DNA of 64,000 bases from Crambe crambe (Eukaryota > Porifera > Demospongiae > Poecilosclerida > Crambeidae). Within the stretch, counting starts at the first letter, position 1, and each line of letters opens with the position of its first letter. The position numbers were made by a program, and so were the translations under genes. Positions 35,962 through 58,900 of the stretch are shown piece after piece. A model generated the notes under the pieces. The model did not search any database and was not told where the DNA came from. It saw only the letters and a program-made list of their open reading frames with translations. The stretch covers positions 930,001-994,000 of the forward strand of contig OZ004598.1 of the NCBI GenBank assembly GCA_963924555.1. Direction: 5' to 3'.

Positions 35962-38900
35962 ATGGACAACAAGAATTTGAAGGTTTTGCTTCTCCCTGCT
36001 TCTACCCCGGCCACCCTTGTATCACTAGAGGTTGAAGCTGGATCCCAGATCCAGAATGGGACCCTCCTCGCCACGTATTCTCTGAAAGGGCAGGAAGAAG
36101 GGGTTAATACAGTTCTCTTCAAATCTTCCACCGTCGGCAAAGTTCAAGCTGTTCTTCATAAAGAAGGAGATATGCTACAACCAAAGTAAGATTCTTTTGT
36201 GCAAAGTGTGGTTTGCTGTGGCAGCTGGTGTCTAGACCACATGGAAAACAGGAATTAGATTGTATGCATACTGTTTTGTTTCCCTTTTTCTCGTTACTTT
36301 AGTGGACCACTTTTCCATGTGGAGGAGAATTGTGATCACAGCATTGTGGTGTTTGACATGTGTGCAAATTGTGGACTCAACCTCAAGAGGTCAGCCAGTC
36401 TATTGATATTAGTATGCTAATAACAGGATTTCCCTCAAAGTTGTCCTATGCTAATTAGTATGCTAATAACAGGGTTTCCCTCAAAGTTGTCCTATGCTAA
36501 TTAGTATGCGGGTTTCCCTCAAATTGTCCTATGCTAATTAGTATGCTAATAACAGGGTTCAAAGTTGTTATTAGCATTTTCCCTCATAGTTATGCAGTGA
36601 TCTATATGGAGAGAGAGATTTGTAGAAATTATTGCCAGTCAATACTTACTTGTTTACAAAAGAAAATGGAGTATTCCAAATTTGAATAGTCTAGTTTTGA
36701 AAATTTTGATCAGCTATTTATGATCAGGAACTCGTCAACAATGGACCACTTTCCCCAGCCAGTGGCTGCTAGTGTGAGTATGATCCATGGCATCCCTGAA
36801 CTGCGTGTCAGTCAGAAGGTACGTACTGTCATATGATAAGTCATGTGATAAATGCTAGTGTGGGCATGTTGACCTGTGGCATCCCTGAACTGACATGTTT
36901 ATGACTGTGTTTCAGGAAGCAGAAGAGTTGGGGAACAAGGATAGACTGCGTCTCTTGAAGAGTCGTAAACTGGCACTGATTGTAGACTTGGACCAGACAC
37001 TAGTACACACCTCAATGGACCCAAATATTGAGCCTGGACTACCCGTAAGTTCCCCAAATCTTTTGATCCTTCCCTCTACCCTGCCCCCTCCCCACTTCCT
37101 CCCCTTCCAAACAAAAGATATCCCCTCAAACCCAGCACAATTCACTAATTGAAGTTCATTTTCATCCAACTATTGAGTACAGTTTAAGAATACAGTGTAA
37201 AATTGTGTGTAAGAGTTGGTTTTTTTCCCCTTGAATCTGTTATTCCACAGGATGTGTACGGTTTTCATCTCCCTGACCATCACCTTCTCTACCACTGTCG
37301 TTTGAGGCCTCACACTCGTGACTTCCTTGAACGAATCTCTCCTCTCTTCGAGCTGCATGTCTTCACCATGGGCACTAAATCCTATGCTGCCAGCGTCACT
37401 AACATCATCGACCCCAACAGGAAGTTGTTCTGTGATCGCATCATCTCCAGAGACGAGTGTTTTGATCCACGTTCAAAGGTCTTGCGTCTCAAGTAAGTTG
37501 TAGTAGTACTGCCATGCTCATATGTAAATGTTATATTCATATAAGTTCACCTGGGAAACAGCCTGCCATTTTATTCTGTAATGGTGCAGCAGCTATCTTG
37601 AAATTACACTTTCAGGACCATTAGTTAACTGGGGTGAAAGGTGTAAGGAAACATTAAAGTTCTGTCTTGTTATTCTATAATGGTGCAGCTGTCTTGGGTA
37701 GTATGACTTTGAACAGTAGGGAAAACCTGATAACAGCACTGCCCTAGCCCTAGCCCTAGCCCTAGCCCTAACCCTTAGCCCTAGCCCTAACCCTAGCCCT
37801 AGCCCTAGCCCCTAACCCTAACCTTATGGTAGTGCATCAGAGTCAGACTAGTTAGCCTCCTACCCAGTCTTCTTTAATTCTTCCCTGTAATTAGAAATTC
37901 TGGGTATGAGACTACATACCAGTGTGATATGTTTATAGGTCTTTGTTCCCTTGTGGTGACTCTATGGTGGCCATCATCGACGACCGAGAAGATGTTTGGG
38001 GGAGGAGTCCAAATCTCATCCACGTCAAGCCGTACATGTTCTTCAAGGGGACCACGGACATAAATGCCCCACCCCCTCTCCATTCAAGACCACGCTCAAG
38101 GCAGAGAGGAGTCGGTAAAGTATCTCCAGCTACACAAAATCCACCACCATTCAAAACTCGTCATGCTGTGAAGAAAGACGCAGCATATCAGATTCCACAC
38201 AAGCAAAAGATTGTCACGTTTCATCCTCTAGAAACCGTTGACACTGGAAAGAAGAAATCTCCTGGCTCATGTGATCTGCCTGGAGGTATTTCACCAAATT
38301 CTGGTACTAATGACACTTCACTGGACTTGGGTCCATCTTTAGAAACCTCAAGCAAATTATCTGGTTTAGCTGATGATCCTTTACCAAATACAGCGCCATC
38401 TGCAGGAGCGTTGCCTGAAGCCCCTACTCTGTCTGAACCTGGTACTCATTCTATTGGAGCCCCTACTCCCTCTGAACCTGGTATTTGTTCTATTGATGAC
38501 ACTTTACCAAGTATCAGTCCAGAAACCTCAACAGAAACCCACACCTCGTTGATATCCGGAACTTACGTAACTGACGACATGTTACCAACAGTGGAGCCTT
38601 CAGACATGATTCCACTGGAGAGTGCCCTCAATACGAACAGTAATAACAATAACAATACCACTGCCATGGGAGGAGTGGATCAGGCTGAAGGAGATTCTAA
38701 CTCCAGTGATACGAGTTCAGACAGTGAGAGTGATAGCAGTAGTAGCAGTGGTATTGACGATGCGTTGTTTGACCAGTCCCCGAGTGCAGGGAATGGGGAG
38801 ACCAGTGGTGAATTGGTGTCAACCAAAGAAGAAGAAGGGGTGAGTTTTCAAGAAGATGGTCTTGCAGAGAAAAATGGTGAAGGAATGGATGTGGCTGCAA

Positions 38901-40093
38901 AGAGCGAGGATCCGATGACTCCACCAGACTCGTCAACTTCCGAGCAGCTTCCAAGAAATAGATCACTTGCAACAGTCAATATTTCTCAAAGTGGTAAGAA
39001 GTTACGTGAGATCCAAGACCCAGACAACTTTCTCATCTCTCTGGCCGACATCCTGGAGAGAATACACAAAATCTTCTACGAAAAATACGACACCTTGACA
39101 CACGATCTTGATGTGATGACAAACACAGATTTTCCCATTCCAGATCTGAAACAAATCATCCCAGAGCTTCGACAATCAATTCTGAAAGATTGCAGAATCA
39201 TCTTTACAGGAGTAATCCCTACTAATATCCCCGTCAGAAAGAATCGGGAGTGGAACACGGCTAAGGCATTTGGTGCCATCATTCACAACACTTTGGTCCC
39301 GGGGCTAAACAGCTCTAAAGAGGATGATATCAGAATGGCCACTACGCATGTGATTGCTGGAAAACCTGGCACTACAAAGTTGATGGATGCTAGGCGAATG
39401 CCAGGAGTAAAAATCGTCAGTCCTAGATGGTTGTGGTCATGTGCTGAGCAATGGAAGATAGTCGATGAGAGTGATTATCCAGTCCAATTTGAGAAGAACA
39501 AGAGGAGAAAAAGGAAAGGCCCTCCGGAAAAAATTCGGCGAGTTGCTAATAGAGAAGGCGAAAATGCTGAGGTTGTCCATGGCAGTGAGGATACCAAAGA
39601 AGAGAAAATGAAAGCCGAGGCATTAGAAGAATCCAGTGATTCCGATAGTGATAGTGAAGATGACTTATTTGAGAAGAAACCAGCCTTTGCCGAGCTTAAG
39701 AAGATGGACACCACTGAAGTAAAGAGACACTACTCCATGGAGAGTCGGCTGTCTGTGTCGGATGAAGAACTCGAAAAAATGGAGGCTGAGGTGGAAGCTG
39801 AGATCAGTGAAAGCAGTTCTGAGGGAGAGAAAGAGGATCTTGGCTCACACATGGAGCAGTTGGTGGATAATAGCGATGAAATTTCGTATGAGAAGTTTGC
39901 GGGCACACATGTGAGTCAAGATATCGATATTTTGGAACGTTTGAATAGAAAGAGACATTTGCTGGACTTGGATGGTTCCAGTTCTTCAGAATCTGTGGTC
40001 ATTGAGCAACTAAATGAATCTTTTTTGACTGATGAAGAGAATGAGAGTGGAGATGGGGATGATGATGAACTTGGAGCTCTTTTAGGTTTCTAA
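35962..40093 (+). CDS. CTDP1: RNA polymerase II CTD phosphatase FCP1
   Basis: Six exons: 35962-36185, 36303-36389, 36728-36818, 36916-37044, 37251-37492 and 37939-40093. The sum is 2928 bases, or 975 aa, near the usual size. The N-terminus (residues 10-85) resembles the biotinyl/lipoyl-like fold known in FCP1. The phosphatase signature DLDQTLVHT is at about 158-166, with both catalytic Asp. The FCPH domain continues into exon 6 (IIDDREDVW). A long Ser/Thr/acidic linker follows. A BRCT domain lies at about 672-772 (LKDCRIIFTG to PRWLWSC). The acidic C-terminus ends DDDELGALLGF, which fits the TFIIF-contacting tail. The enzyme removes phosphate from Ser of the polymerase II tail. Exon 6 alone holds about 73% of the coding sequence. 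Confidence 0.95.
36398..36590. repeat. Minisatellite in FCP1 intron 2, about 50-base units
   Basis: Three to four imperfect units of TTAGTATGCTAATAACAGGG followed by TTTCCCTCAAAGTTGTCC. Confined to the intron. Confidence 0.75.
37739..37824. repeat. Telomere-like repeat tract in FCP1 intron 5
   Basis: About 85 bases of CCCTAG units mixed with CCCTAA units. CCCTAA is the complement of the common metazoan telomere repeat TTAGGG. The tract lies between FCP1 exons 5 and 6, so it is interstitial. Confidence 0.85.
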
Positions 40094-41563: not shown

Positions 41564-56043
<14,480 letters not shown>

Positions 56044-56584: not shown

Positions 56585-58765
56585 CTAGCTTTCATCTTGT
56601 TCAGAAGTCCCTGACTTCTTCCACTCTTGTTCCACACGATAGGTGTAAATCAATAGCTTGGGGAAGTGACTGTTGAAGTACTGGACAACACCCCCATTCT
56701 CCTGATAAATAGACCTCACTTCTTTGCCTAAATCTCCAAAATGTTCTATTTTGTTCCTAACTACTTTGAGAAGAGTGCAAATTTTGTCATGTTCCTTAAA
56801 ACTCCTGACATCACTCCGAACTTTTTTGTCTAATCTGTTCTTCCAGTTTTCCTGAAACACGACAGCCGCATTATGCTCCAATCTTTCCTTCAACTGCTGG
56901 ACTCTTGAGCTTGACAGCATGTCCCTCATGTGTCTACCTATATGATGATAAAACTCCACCATTTCACTATCACCCCAAAATAAGGGATGTTTCAAAATAT
57001 TCTCAGCATCAGGTCTTTTGGAGGCATTTGAGTTGATCATTTGCATAATCAAGTCTTCAGCAAGTGCTACTAGAAAGTCATCATGATATTCTTTCAAATC
57101 ACTGAGGGAAAAGTTGTCGTTAATGATATTTTCTTGGCGGGCTTCTACACTTAATAGTGATCCAAAGGGATGCTTTCCACTGGTCAATACATAGAAAAAG
57201 ACACAACCTAATGAAAAAATATCTACAGCCATAGTTCTCTTCCCTCTACTACTCCAAAGTTCAGGAGCAGACCAGCCTTCAGTACCCTGCATTATCTTAT
57301 GTGATGTTTCATCATCAATGAAGCGGCTTACATCAAAGTCAGAAATTATAAACCTTATTTCTTTGGACTTGATACCAAACAATTGCCATAATATATTTTG
57401 AGGTTTAATATCTCGATGTTGTACATCTAAACTGTGAAGAAACTTTATCCCCTGCATAATCTGAAAAAGACAACATCCCCGTGTCAAATAAGGAAGAAAT
57501 TCTTCCTTGCGGTCAAGAATGGCAGTTTTCAAATTTCCTCCACAGAGTTCAAGAGCAATGTATGTGTTTGTGGAGTCTCTCTCGACACATAAATACTGGA
57601 TCATATTTTTGTGGGGTGAGCCCTGCTTGGATAAATGTAAAAGTATATCTAGCTCTTTGATGTTGGTCAGATGAGGATACTTCTTGATTGCAGCACAGCG
57701 TCCATCTTGAAGCTTTCCCTTGAAGACATTACCTTTACGTGTTGAACCAAGAACATCATTAAAATTAAACTCAAGTTGTCCAACCACTTTCTTCCCTTTT
57801 TGACTTGAACACAGTACACAATAGAGTAGTGATGCACACAGAGCTAACAAACTAATACAAACAGCTAAAATACTTCTGGAGAATAATTGAAGTGGTGAAT
57901 CACTGATAAAACAATGTTGAAAATCCTCTGTTGTCAATTGCTTTAGCGTAGTACCATTGAGAGCCTTGGGATATAAACAGATGGCTTCACCCGACTCAAC
58001 TAGAATAGAAGTAAAATTTAGTATCCAATGCATTTCACATGAACAATTCCAGAAATTTCCATCCAAATTGAGAACTTTTAATGAAGTAAGTTGAGCAACG
58101 TCCTCCCCTGGAATTGTTCTCAGCCAATTATGAGACAAATCTAAAATCTCCAAACTCGGAAGGTTGTCAAAAGACCCCTGCTGTATTTCCGTTATTATGT
58201 TGTGTGACAGATCAATTGCATGGATTTGTGGAAGACTCCGGAATGTCTCTTTCTGTATTCTATGCAAGGAATTGTTACCCAGTGAAATGTTCTCTAAAGA
58301 AGGAAGAAGCTTAAAAGTTCCTTCCACAAGCAAATCAAAACGGTTATTAGTAAGGGTGATATTCCTGATAGAAACAAATGAATTTCCTTGGAAGGTATCA
58401 GAAGATAAATAATTTATGTGACAATGTTCAAGAGAGATACTGATGAACATAGGATTAAGTGGAAACTCATGGTTTGGAAATGATGCCATGTTCAAGGCCC
58501 CAAGTAGATACTCTGTTATGATCAGATCCGTTGTATTGAATGGGAGGCTCTGAGGTATATTCATGCCTTGACGAAAGCCAAACTTAGGACCAGTGCAATT
58601 CACTACAAACCTTTTCTCCTGATCTGTTGTCCAGTCATAACATTCGCATTCATCCAGGCAAGGATCAGTTCCATCCATGCTTCCACGGTAGTTGCCTAGT
58701 CCAAAGTCAAACAATTGTCCTAAACATTGTGGAAAAAGCATACAGCAAATGTAGAGTGCTAACAT
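56585..58765 (-). CDS. LRR receptor kinase with KEN (IRE1/RNase L-type) ribonuclease domain, intronless
   Basis: A single 726-codon exon. A signal peptide (about 1-16) leads into a Cys-rich cap and leucine-rich repeats (about 100-235; motifs such as LEILDLSHNWL). An LRR C-terminal cap (NCSCEMHWIL to about 285) and a membrane helix (about 296-318) follow. The kinase domain (about 335-595) has Lys361 in AAIKKY, HRD at 450-452, DFD at 476-478 in place of DFG, and an APE-like APELW. The KEN domain (about 597-712) has RNKIEHF (Arg670, Asn671, His675 match nuclease residues known in IRE1) and YFNSHFPKLLIYTYR. RNase L also has DFD. IRE1 has a beta-propeller lumenal domain and RNase L has ankyrin repeats; an LRR ectodomain is different. 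Likely a surface or ER sensor that activates RNA cleavage; ligand unknown. The lack of introns, beside intron-rich genes, hints at retroposition. Confidence 0.88.
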   Translation of the reverse strand: MLALYICCMLFPQCLGQLFDFGLGNYRGSMDGTDPCLDECECYDWTTDQEKRFVVNCTGPKFGFRQGMNIPQSLPFNTTDLIITEYLLGALNMASFPNHEFPLNPMFISISLEHCHINYLSSDTFQGNSFVSIRNITLTNNRFDLLVEGTFKLLPSLENISLGNNSLHRIQKETFRSLPQIHAIDLSHNIITEIQQGSFDNLPSLEILDLSHNWLRTIPGEDVAQLTSLKVLNLDGNFWNCSCEMHWILNFTSILVESGEAICLYPKALNGTTLKQLTTEDFQHCFISDSPLQLFSRSILAVCISLLALCASLLYCVLCSSQKGKKVVGQLEFNFNDVLGSTRKGNVFKGKLQDGRCAAIKKYPHLTNIKELDILLHLSKQGSPHKNMIQYLCVERDSTNTYIALELCGGNLKTAILDRKEEFLPYLTRGCCLFQIMQGIKFLHSLDVQHRDIKPQNILWQLFGIKSKEIRFIISDFDVSRFIDDETSHKIMQGTEGWSAPELWSSRGKRTMAVDIFSLGCVFFYVLTSGKHPFGSLLSVEARQENIINDNFSLSDLKEYHDDFLVALAEDLIMQMINSNASKRPDAENILKHPLFWGDSEMVEFYHHIGRHMRDMLSSSRVQQLKERLEHNAAVVFQENWKNRLDKKVRSDVRSFKEHDKICTLLKVVRNKIEHFGDLGKEVRSIYQENGGVVQYFNSHFPKLLIYTYRVEQEWKKSGTSEQDES

Positions 58766-58789
58766 TTTTCATGGATGGTTAAATTTTGC

Positions 58790-58900
58790 TGACTCAGCTC
58801 AGCAGTTCGCAGCACGTGCGCGTAACCTGCCCGCCCGCGCCGCCCGGGCCGCTCGCAGAATACCACAACAAAGTGGGGGGCGGGGCTGACCGCACTTGTT
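58790..58900 (-). promoter_or_regulatory. GC-rich candidate promoter of the LRR-kinase-KEN gene
   Basis: A short GC-rich island in AT-rich surroundings, just upstream of the start at 58765. It holds CACGTG (58813-58818), CCGCCCGCGCCGCCCGGGCC and a GC box GGGGGCGGGGC (58875-58885). Role inferred from position and composition. Confidence 0.4.

Follow-up and report, generated by a model that had tools for sequence, protein, structure and literature searches.

The window, by which we mean the whole 64,000-nucleotide stretch of Crambe crambe DNA that was analysed, holds on its minus strand a gene in which a leucine-rich-repeat (LRR) ectodomain is joined through one membrane helix to a protein kinase domain and a KEN ribonuclease domain. 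We find that this gene belongs to a real, conserved family, LRR-KEN, of predicted single-pass LRR receptors with an RNase L-like kinase-KEN effector, which on the basis of sequence is distinct from IRE1. In animals the kinase-KEN superfamily is known mainly from IRE1 and RNase L. The distinction follows from a D-x-D (DxD) triplet in the place of the kinase DFG motif, from Gly and Glu residues of the RNase L kind in the KEN part, and from the presence of a separate IRE1 gene in the same genome.

The receptor gene and its surroundings

The features of the receptor gene and its neighbours in the window are the following.

56585..58765, minus: whole coding frame, uninterrupted, 726 aa, in the order signal peptide, LRR, membrane helix, kinase, KEN (ORF reading and Pfam)
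58718..58765, minus: probable signal peptide, residues 1-16, cleavage point placed by eye (hydropathy)
57872..58717, minus: LRR ectodomain, residues 17-298, with cap-like Cys and 8 N-glycosylation sequons (Pfam, alignment)
57815..57871, minus: membrane helix, residues 299-317 (hydropathy 2.64)
56978..57763, minus: protein kinase domain, residues 335-596 (Pfam Pkinase, alignment)
57332..57340, minus: DFD in the place of DFG, residues 476-478 (alignment; D476 and D478 in 50 of 50 members)
56618..56902, minus: KEN ribonuclease domain PF06479, residues 622-716 (Pfam)
56738..56758, minus: KEN active-site motif RNKIEHF, residues 670-676 (alignment)
77-1909, plus: retrotransposon pol fragment with RT RNase H, zinc-binding and integrase core domains (Pfam)
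37943-40093, plus: frame of 716 aa with a BRCT match at 2.3e-5 (Pfam)
44577-45044 and 53341-53760, plus: two frames sharing a near-identical stretch of about 38 residues (sequence comparison)
55215-55500, both strands: long CT/GA simple repeat with open SL/RE frames on both strands (ORF list)

The receptor frame has its own ATG, 726 codons and a stop, with no internal stop codon, and Pfam together with hydropathy bore out the order of LRR, membrane helix, kinase and KEN that had been proposed in the preliminary description. The matches to LRR_8 (1e-22), Pkinase (2.2e-37) and Ribonuc_2-5A (3.5e-20) are all far above the curated cut-offs, the last being the KEN profile PF06479, which substantiates the KEN domain first read from the letters. 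The hydropathy of the protein gives a signal-like start and a single strong segment, the membrane helix, while a weaker segment (residues 512-530, 1.65) lies within the kinase domain; a hydrophobic N-terminal stretch is also present in many other LRR-KEN members (hydropathy, alignment). Residues 326-711 match solved IRE1 chains, which we take to be the human and yeast ones, with E-values of 3e-60 to 2e-57 (best 3.1e-60), and the phmmer matches of the ectodomain include those of Toll-like receptors (TLRs), LRRC32 and LGRs.

Around the gene, the 120 bases upstream of the ATG (58766-58885) are GC-rich, with 62% GC versus 41% for the window, and an out-of-frame ATG stands seven bases ahead of the start codon. 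The CT/GA repeat lies about 1.1 kb past the 3' end of the receptor frame. Further away, the frame with the BRCT match is presumably similar to the C-terminal portion of FCP1/CTDP1, the phosphatase of the RNA polymerase II CTD, and the stretch common to the frames at 44577-45044 and 53341-53760 is, as we read the two copies, a local duplication of an exon.

By eye, the ectodomain contains about six or seven LRRs. Cysteines 36, 40, 42 and 57 resemble an N-cap and cysteines 241, 243, 263 and 285 a C-cap, and they are kept in 44 to 48 of the 50 aligned members of the family. Since the LRRNT and LRRCT models of Pfam gave no match in the receptor protein, even at E <= 10, the assignment of caps rests on the spacing of these cysteines, which we take to be the N- and C-cap pattern of LRRs. 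The LRR caps named in the preliminary description therefore stand as far as the eight conserved cysteines fit them and lack a profile match. Its comparison with Toll-like receptors holds for the type of LRR and for nothing beyond it, the repeats being fewer here than in Toll-like receptors.

A family in sponges and corals

To define the family we used the matches listed by a full-length search (best 120 of 334) and a kinase-KEN search (best 120 of 1126), in which at least 64 distinct protein clusters (55 + 9) carry LRR, kinase and KEN by precomputed Pfam domains. The same domain order is thus found beyond this genome. An organism is named in three of these 64, one demosponge and two corals: Halichondria panicea (Porifera), Montipora capricornis (Hexacorallia) and Dendronephthya gigantea (Octocorallia). 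No bilaterian is named among the 64 listed clusters, 61 of which come without an organism, and for a further named protein, from Paramuricea clavata, the domains listed are LRR and kinase, without KEN. The LRR and kinase-KEN parts, for which separate transcripts had been considered, are joined in one chain in P0056 and P0063, predicted proteins of other species.

We aligned 49 of the 64 listed clusters, picked by hand, with the Crambe protein (n = 50). The 15 left outside are four tandem-kinase clusters, P0029 (a model without membrane helix), P0044 and nine judged shorter or partial. All 50 aligned members match the LRR_8, Pkinase and Ribonuc_2-5A models, and their median identity to the Crambe protein is 44% in the ectodomain, 51% in the kinase and 44% in KEN. 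In the tandem-kinase clusters (P0001, P0022, P0024 and P0121; 1044-1156 aa) two kinases precede one KEN behind the LRRs and the membrane helix; P0001 has HRD and DFD in both kinases, and the first kinase of P0022, P0024 and P0121 keeps HRD but lacks a DFx recognisable by motif pattern. Among the viral relatives (80 of 102), the matches listed are confined to kinase residues and none extends past residue 600, so there is no viral LRR-KEN among those 80. In a set of Daphnia proteins (P0082, P0084, P0087, P0088 and P0090) a similar kinase occurs with PF00400 repeats, PF06479 not being listed; these may represent a further branch of such kinases that has diverged.

The genome (143 Mb, 119 contigs) gave at least four PF06479 matches, one in the receptor gene and the other three along a single gene on contig C18. 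The ten exons read of the latter include DFG and RNKKHHY in their coding sequence, and the lumenal parts of IRE1 are matched by blocks that lie upstream. By these motifs and matches, this gene is the canonical, intron-rich IRE1, coexisting with the LRR-KEN gene. A search of the genome with the whole protein returned 61 matches, the receptor itself at 100% and 60 others at no more than 54.6 bits, and did not find a second LRR-KEN. Those 60 are mostly kinase stretches, with one LRR stretch (residues 97-237) and one exon of the contig C18 gene; several on contig C3 reach query residues 622-684, where PF06479 gave no match. On that contig, at about 4.6-8.6 Mb, many distantly similar kinase frames (25-33%), some with stops, form a cluster, possibly an expansion of a receptor-kinase family. 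Of the gene families searched as markers of the phylum, Cys-loop receptors gave no match, as did their control query, innexins two weak matches and TIR five, none of these results being decisive.

Conservation of the kinase and KEN residues

Nine kinase residues (K361, E371, H450, R451, D452, N457, D476, D478 and E502) are invariant in the 50 members, and activation-loop position 487 is Ser or Thr in all of them (45 S, 5 T). The kinase Lys and HRD reported in the preliminary description are therefore confirmed, here and throughout the alignment; that account of the kinase motifs passed over, however, the replacement of DFG by DFD. The site reads DFD in 45 members, DLD in five and DFG in none, whereas DFG is found in 26 of 26 IRE1 rows; mammalian RNase Ls have DFD in seven of seven, four of which are in the tree described below. 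Clusters outside the alignment are also DFD, and HRD is replaced by HRN in P0044 and by HQD in the second kinase of P0024. The glycine loop of the Crambe protein is of full length (12 letters, residues 338-349), with the second Gly of GxGxxG absent by eye, and it is shorter in 42 of the 50 members. With DxD invariant, a structural role in which the kinase domain binds nucleotide is favoured over phosphotransfer, and in function the cytoplasmic part may stand closest to the pseudokinase RNase L instead of IRE1. Kinase activity is also possible, as the Lys, the Glu, the HRD Asp and the Ser/Thr at 487 are all present in 50 of 50.

In KEN, the nuclease Arg, Asn and His that had been pointed out in RNKIEHF are all there, and they are conserved: R670 in 47 of the 50 members, N or D at 671 in all (N 45, D 5) and H675 in 49. 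Three members have lost the Arg, and one of those the His too. According to the passages on KEN in PMC3710099, R and H are needed for its activity.

At two further positions KEN of the family resembles that of RNase L. Gly stands at position 610 in 46 of 50 LRR-KEN members and in 4 of 4 RNase Ls, where 26 of 26 IRE1s have Ser, and position 674 is Glu in 30 of 50 and 3 of 4, respectively, and His in 20 of 26 IRE1s. In the passages of PMC8104961 that deal with the nuclease dimer, E671 of RNase L contacts N601' across it, in a comparison with a changed yeast Ire1, and the Gly equivalent to 610 goes unnamed. In our reading of the alignment, 674 would be RNase L E671, 611 would be N601, and Gly610 the residue between alpha1 and N601. 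Position 611 is Asn in 16 of 50 members. Since the Crambe protein has Arg there, the likeness of the interface to that of RNase L is only partial, and the absence of Glu674 from 20 of 50 members likewise speaks against an RNase L-like reading.

Position of LRR-KEN relative to IRE1 and RNase L

In the first tree the LRR-KEN rows lie on one side of a branch with support 89/94, which becomes 96/99 with DFx masked, and they fall outside the IRE1 clade. The IRE1 rows also lie on one side of a branch in the first tree (97/89), so that any root inside IRE1 would unite LRR-KEN with RNase L. In a quick tree of 72 rows the IRE1 branch has a support of 67 and the LRR-KEN branch one of 96. The masked tree refers to 51 of the 72 rows (25 of 42 LRR-KEN, 22 of 26 IRE1 and 4 of 4 RNase L), the masking having missed the IRE_own row, and P0125, P0130 and P0135 were dropped after the first tree. 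For RNase L seven rows were chosen, of which three were lost to the motif cut, leaving four mammals on a long branch. RNase L may, but need not, be the sister of LRR-KEN: the first tree favours this, but the 97/89 of the IRE1 branch falls to 56/11 under masking, the alternative that joins RNase L to metazoan IRE1 is not rejected (AU p 0.456), and profile scores are about equal. RNase L columns shared at the 50% level number six with LRR-KEN and nine with IRE1; at 90% or more on both sides they number two versus none, in favour of LRR-KEN.

A putative receptor with ribonuclease output

We think it fairly probable that LRR-KEN acts as a receptor in which pairing driven by the LRRs would pass through a pseudokinase-like switch to a KEN ribonuclease output. 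It would be a type I single-pass receptor with its LRR ectodomain facing the cell exterior or a lumen. A ligand, or self-association, would gather two or more receptors, and their cytoplasmic kinase domains would form the back-to-back pairs known from IRE1 and RNase L. The nucleotide pocket, pseudokinase-like with its DFD, would act chiefly as a structural switch rather than phosphorylate substrates, and the paired KEN domains would make an active, metal-independent ribonuclease cutting RNA near the membrane. Its specificity would probably be loose as in RNase L, unlike the single splice target of IRE1, and its role one in defence or stress. We infer ligand-driven dimerisation, the pseudokinase state, RNase activity, loose specificity and the defence or stress role by analogy: the passages of PMC4536996 on the kinase of RNase L describe it as a pseudokinase whose active RNase is a dimer, and those of PMC8104961 term RNase L promiscuous. 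Against this mechanism stand the invariance of the kinase Lys, the alphaC Glu, the HRD Asp and both Asp of DxD, and the full-length glycine loop of the Crambe protein; this loop, together with the departures from HRD in P0044 and P0024, makes the mechanism slightly less favoured and a true kinase slightly more.

Two rival explanations keep the protein as a functional unit. IRE1 is an ER protein with the same topology as LRR-KEN and the best solved match of its cytoplasmic part, and no sequence feature fixes the receptor at the plasma membrane; LRR-KEN could then be a second, ER-resident stress sensor, whose LRRs take the position of the IRE1 lumenal domain inside the ER, where they would sense a lumenal ligand or proteins that are unfolded or unassembled, adding a branch to the unfolded protein response (UPR). 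We consider this unlikely, as no PQQ-type lumenal domain was matched, a separate IRE1 is already in the genome, and capped LRRs with glycosylation sequons are usually extracellular. A lower probability still is given to a signalling receptor kinase whose output is kinase activity, KEN being only a dimer prop or an RNA-binding domain. The invariant K361, E371, D452, N457 and D476, the Ser/Thr at 487 and the loss of the KEN Arg from three members would fit such a kinase, but the Gly of DFG is Asp in every member, most members have the shortened glycine loop, and the KEN R and H are nearly always kept.

It is hardly credible, finally, that the gene is a fusion made by chance or assembly, or a decayed retrocopy, functionless as one protein. 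Its frame has no intron, whereas IRE1 of the same genome is intron-rich, and no AATAAA or ATTAAA occurs within about 780 bases past its stop; but the frame is intact, its catalytic residues are conserved, and the same three domains recur in the at least 64 clusters among the matches listed.

Relation to known systems and significance

LRR-KEN resembles IRE1 in having a kinase and then KEN behind one membrane helix, and differs from it in carrying LRRs for the PQQ-type lumenal domain, DxD for DFG and Gly for Ser at 610; the KEN motif is RNKIEHF in the LRR-KEN gene and RNKKHHY in IRE1 of the same genome. RNase L is a soluble protein whose ankyrin repeats bind 2-5A. With it LRR-KEN shares the DFD kinase, the R and H of KEN and, in or next to the interface of the KEN dimer, a Gly and often a Glu, but LRR-KEN has LRRs, a signal peptide and a membrane helix, and no ankyrin match by Pfam. 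The LRR ectodomain followed by one membrane helix recalls TLRs and other animal LRR receptors, from which the few repeats counted by eye, the lack of a TIR match and the kinase-KEN intracellular part set it apart. Plant LRR receptor-like kinases have the same order of LRR, membrane helix and kinase, whereas in LRR-KEN the kinase belongs with those of IRE1 and RNase L and is followed by KEN.

The preliminary description knew of no described receptor with this order, and we likewise found no description of an LRR-kinase-KEN receptor in the literature, searched by title or passage and mostly outside subscription journals. The passages of PMC3710099 on domain fusions list kinase, ankyrin, CCCH, UBI and BRCT with KEN, not LRR, the LRR entry there being another HEPN family, DZIP3. 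The relevant passages of PMC7333395 give Ribonuc_2-5A as an extra domain in plant receptor-like kinase sets, its co-occurrence with LRR not being stated in them, and plant IRE1 could explain this entry. Those of PMC11797021 mention, for a ctenophore, an RNase L inhibitor domain as well as LRRs, not the LRR-kinase-KEN order. As far as these searches reach, LRR-KEN is an undescribed combination of known modules.

We also put forward, as a tentative proposal that is possible but rather doubtful, that LRR-KEN is an ancient innate receptor of animals which answers its ligand by cutting RNA, and that vertebrate RNase L descends from it, with the LRR-membrane part swapped for ankyrin repeats, and not directly from IRE1. 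If true, the OAS/RNase L system would have a cytoplasmic half that predates RNase L itself and is present in sponges and corals, for which OAS but no RNase L has been reported. OAS without RNase L is reported in four sponges and eight other invertebrates (PMC6307210, in its passages on these genes), and the presence in corals and a sponge of a kinase-KEN protein with DFD bears on this gap, although the Crambe protein has no ankyrin part for 2-5A; a search of the Crambe genome for OAS gave no match, as did a control query, which was without a match anywhere. If our reading of the receptor is true, LRR-KEN would provide a one-protein pathway from receptor to RNase, free of adaptors, transcription factors and second messengers. 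The family adds a third branch beside IRE1 and RNase L, and it provides a testable candidate for the ancestor of RNase L.
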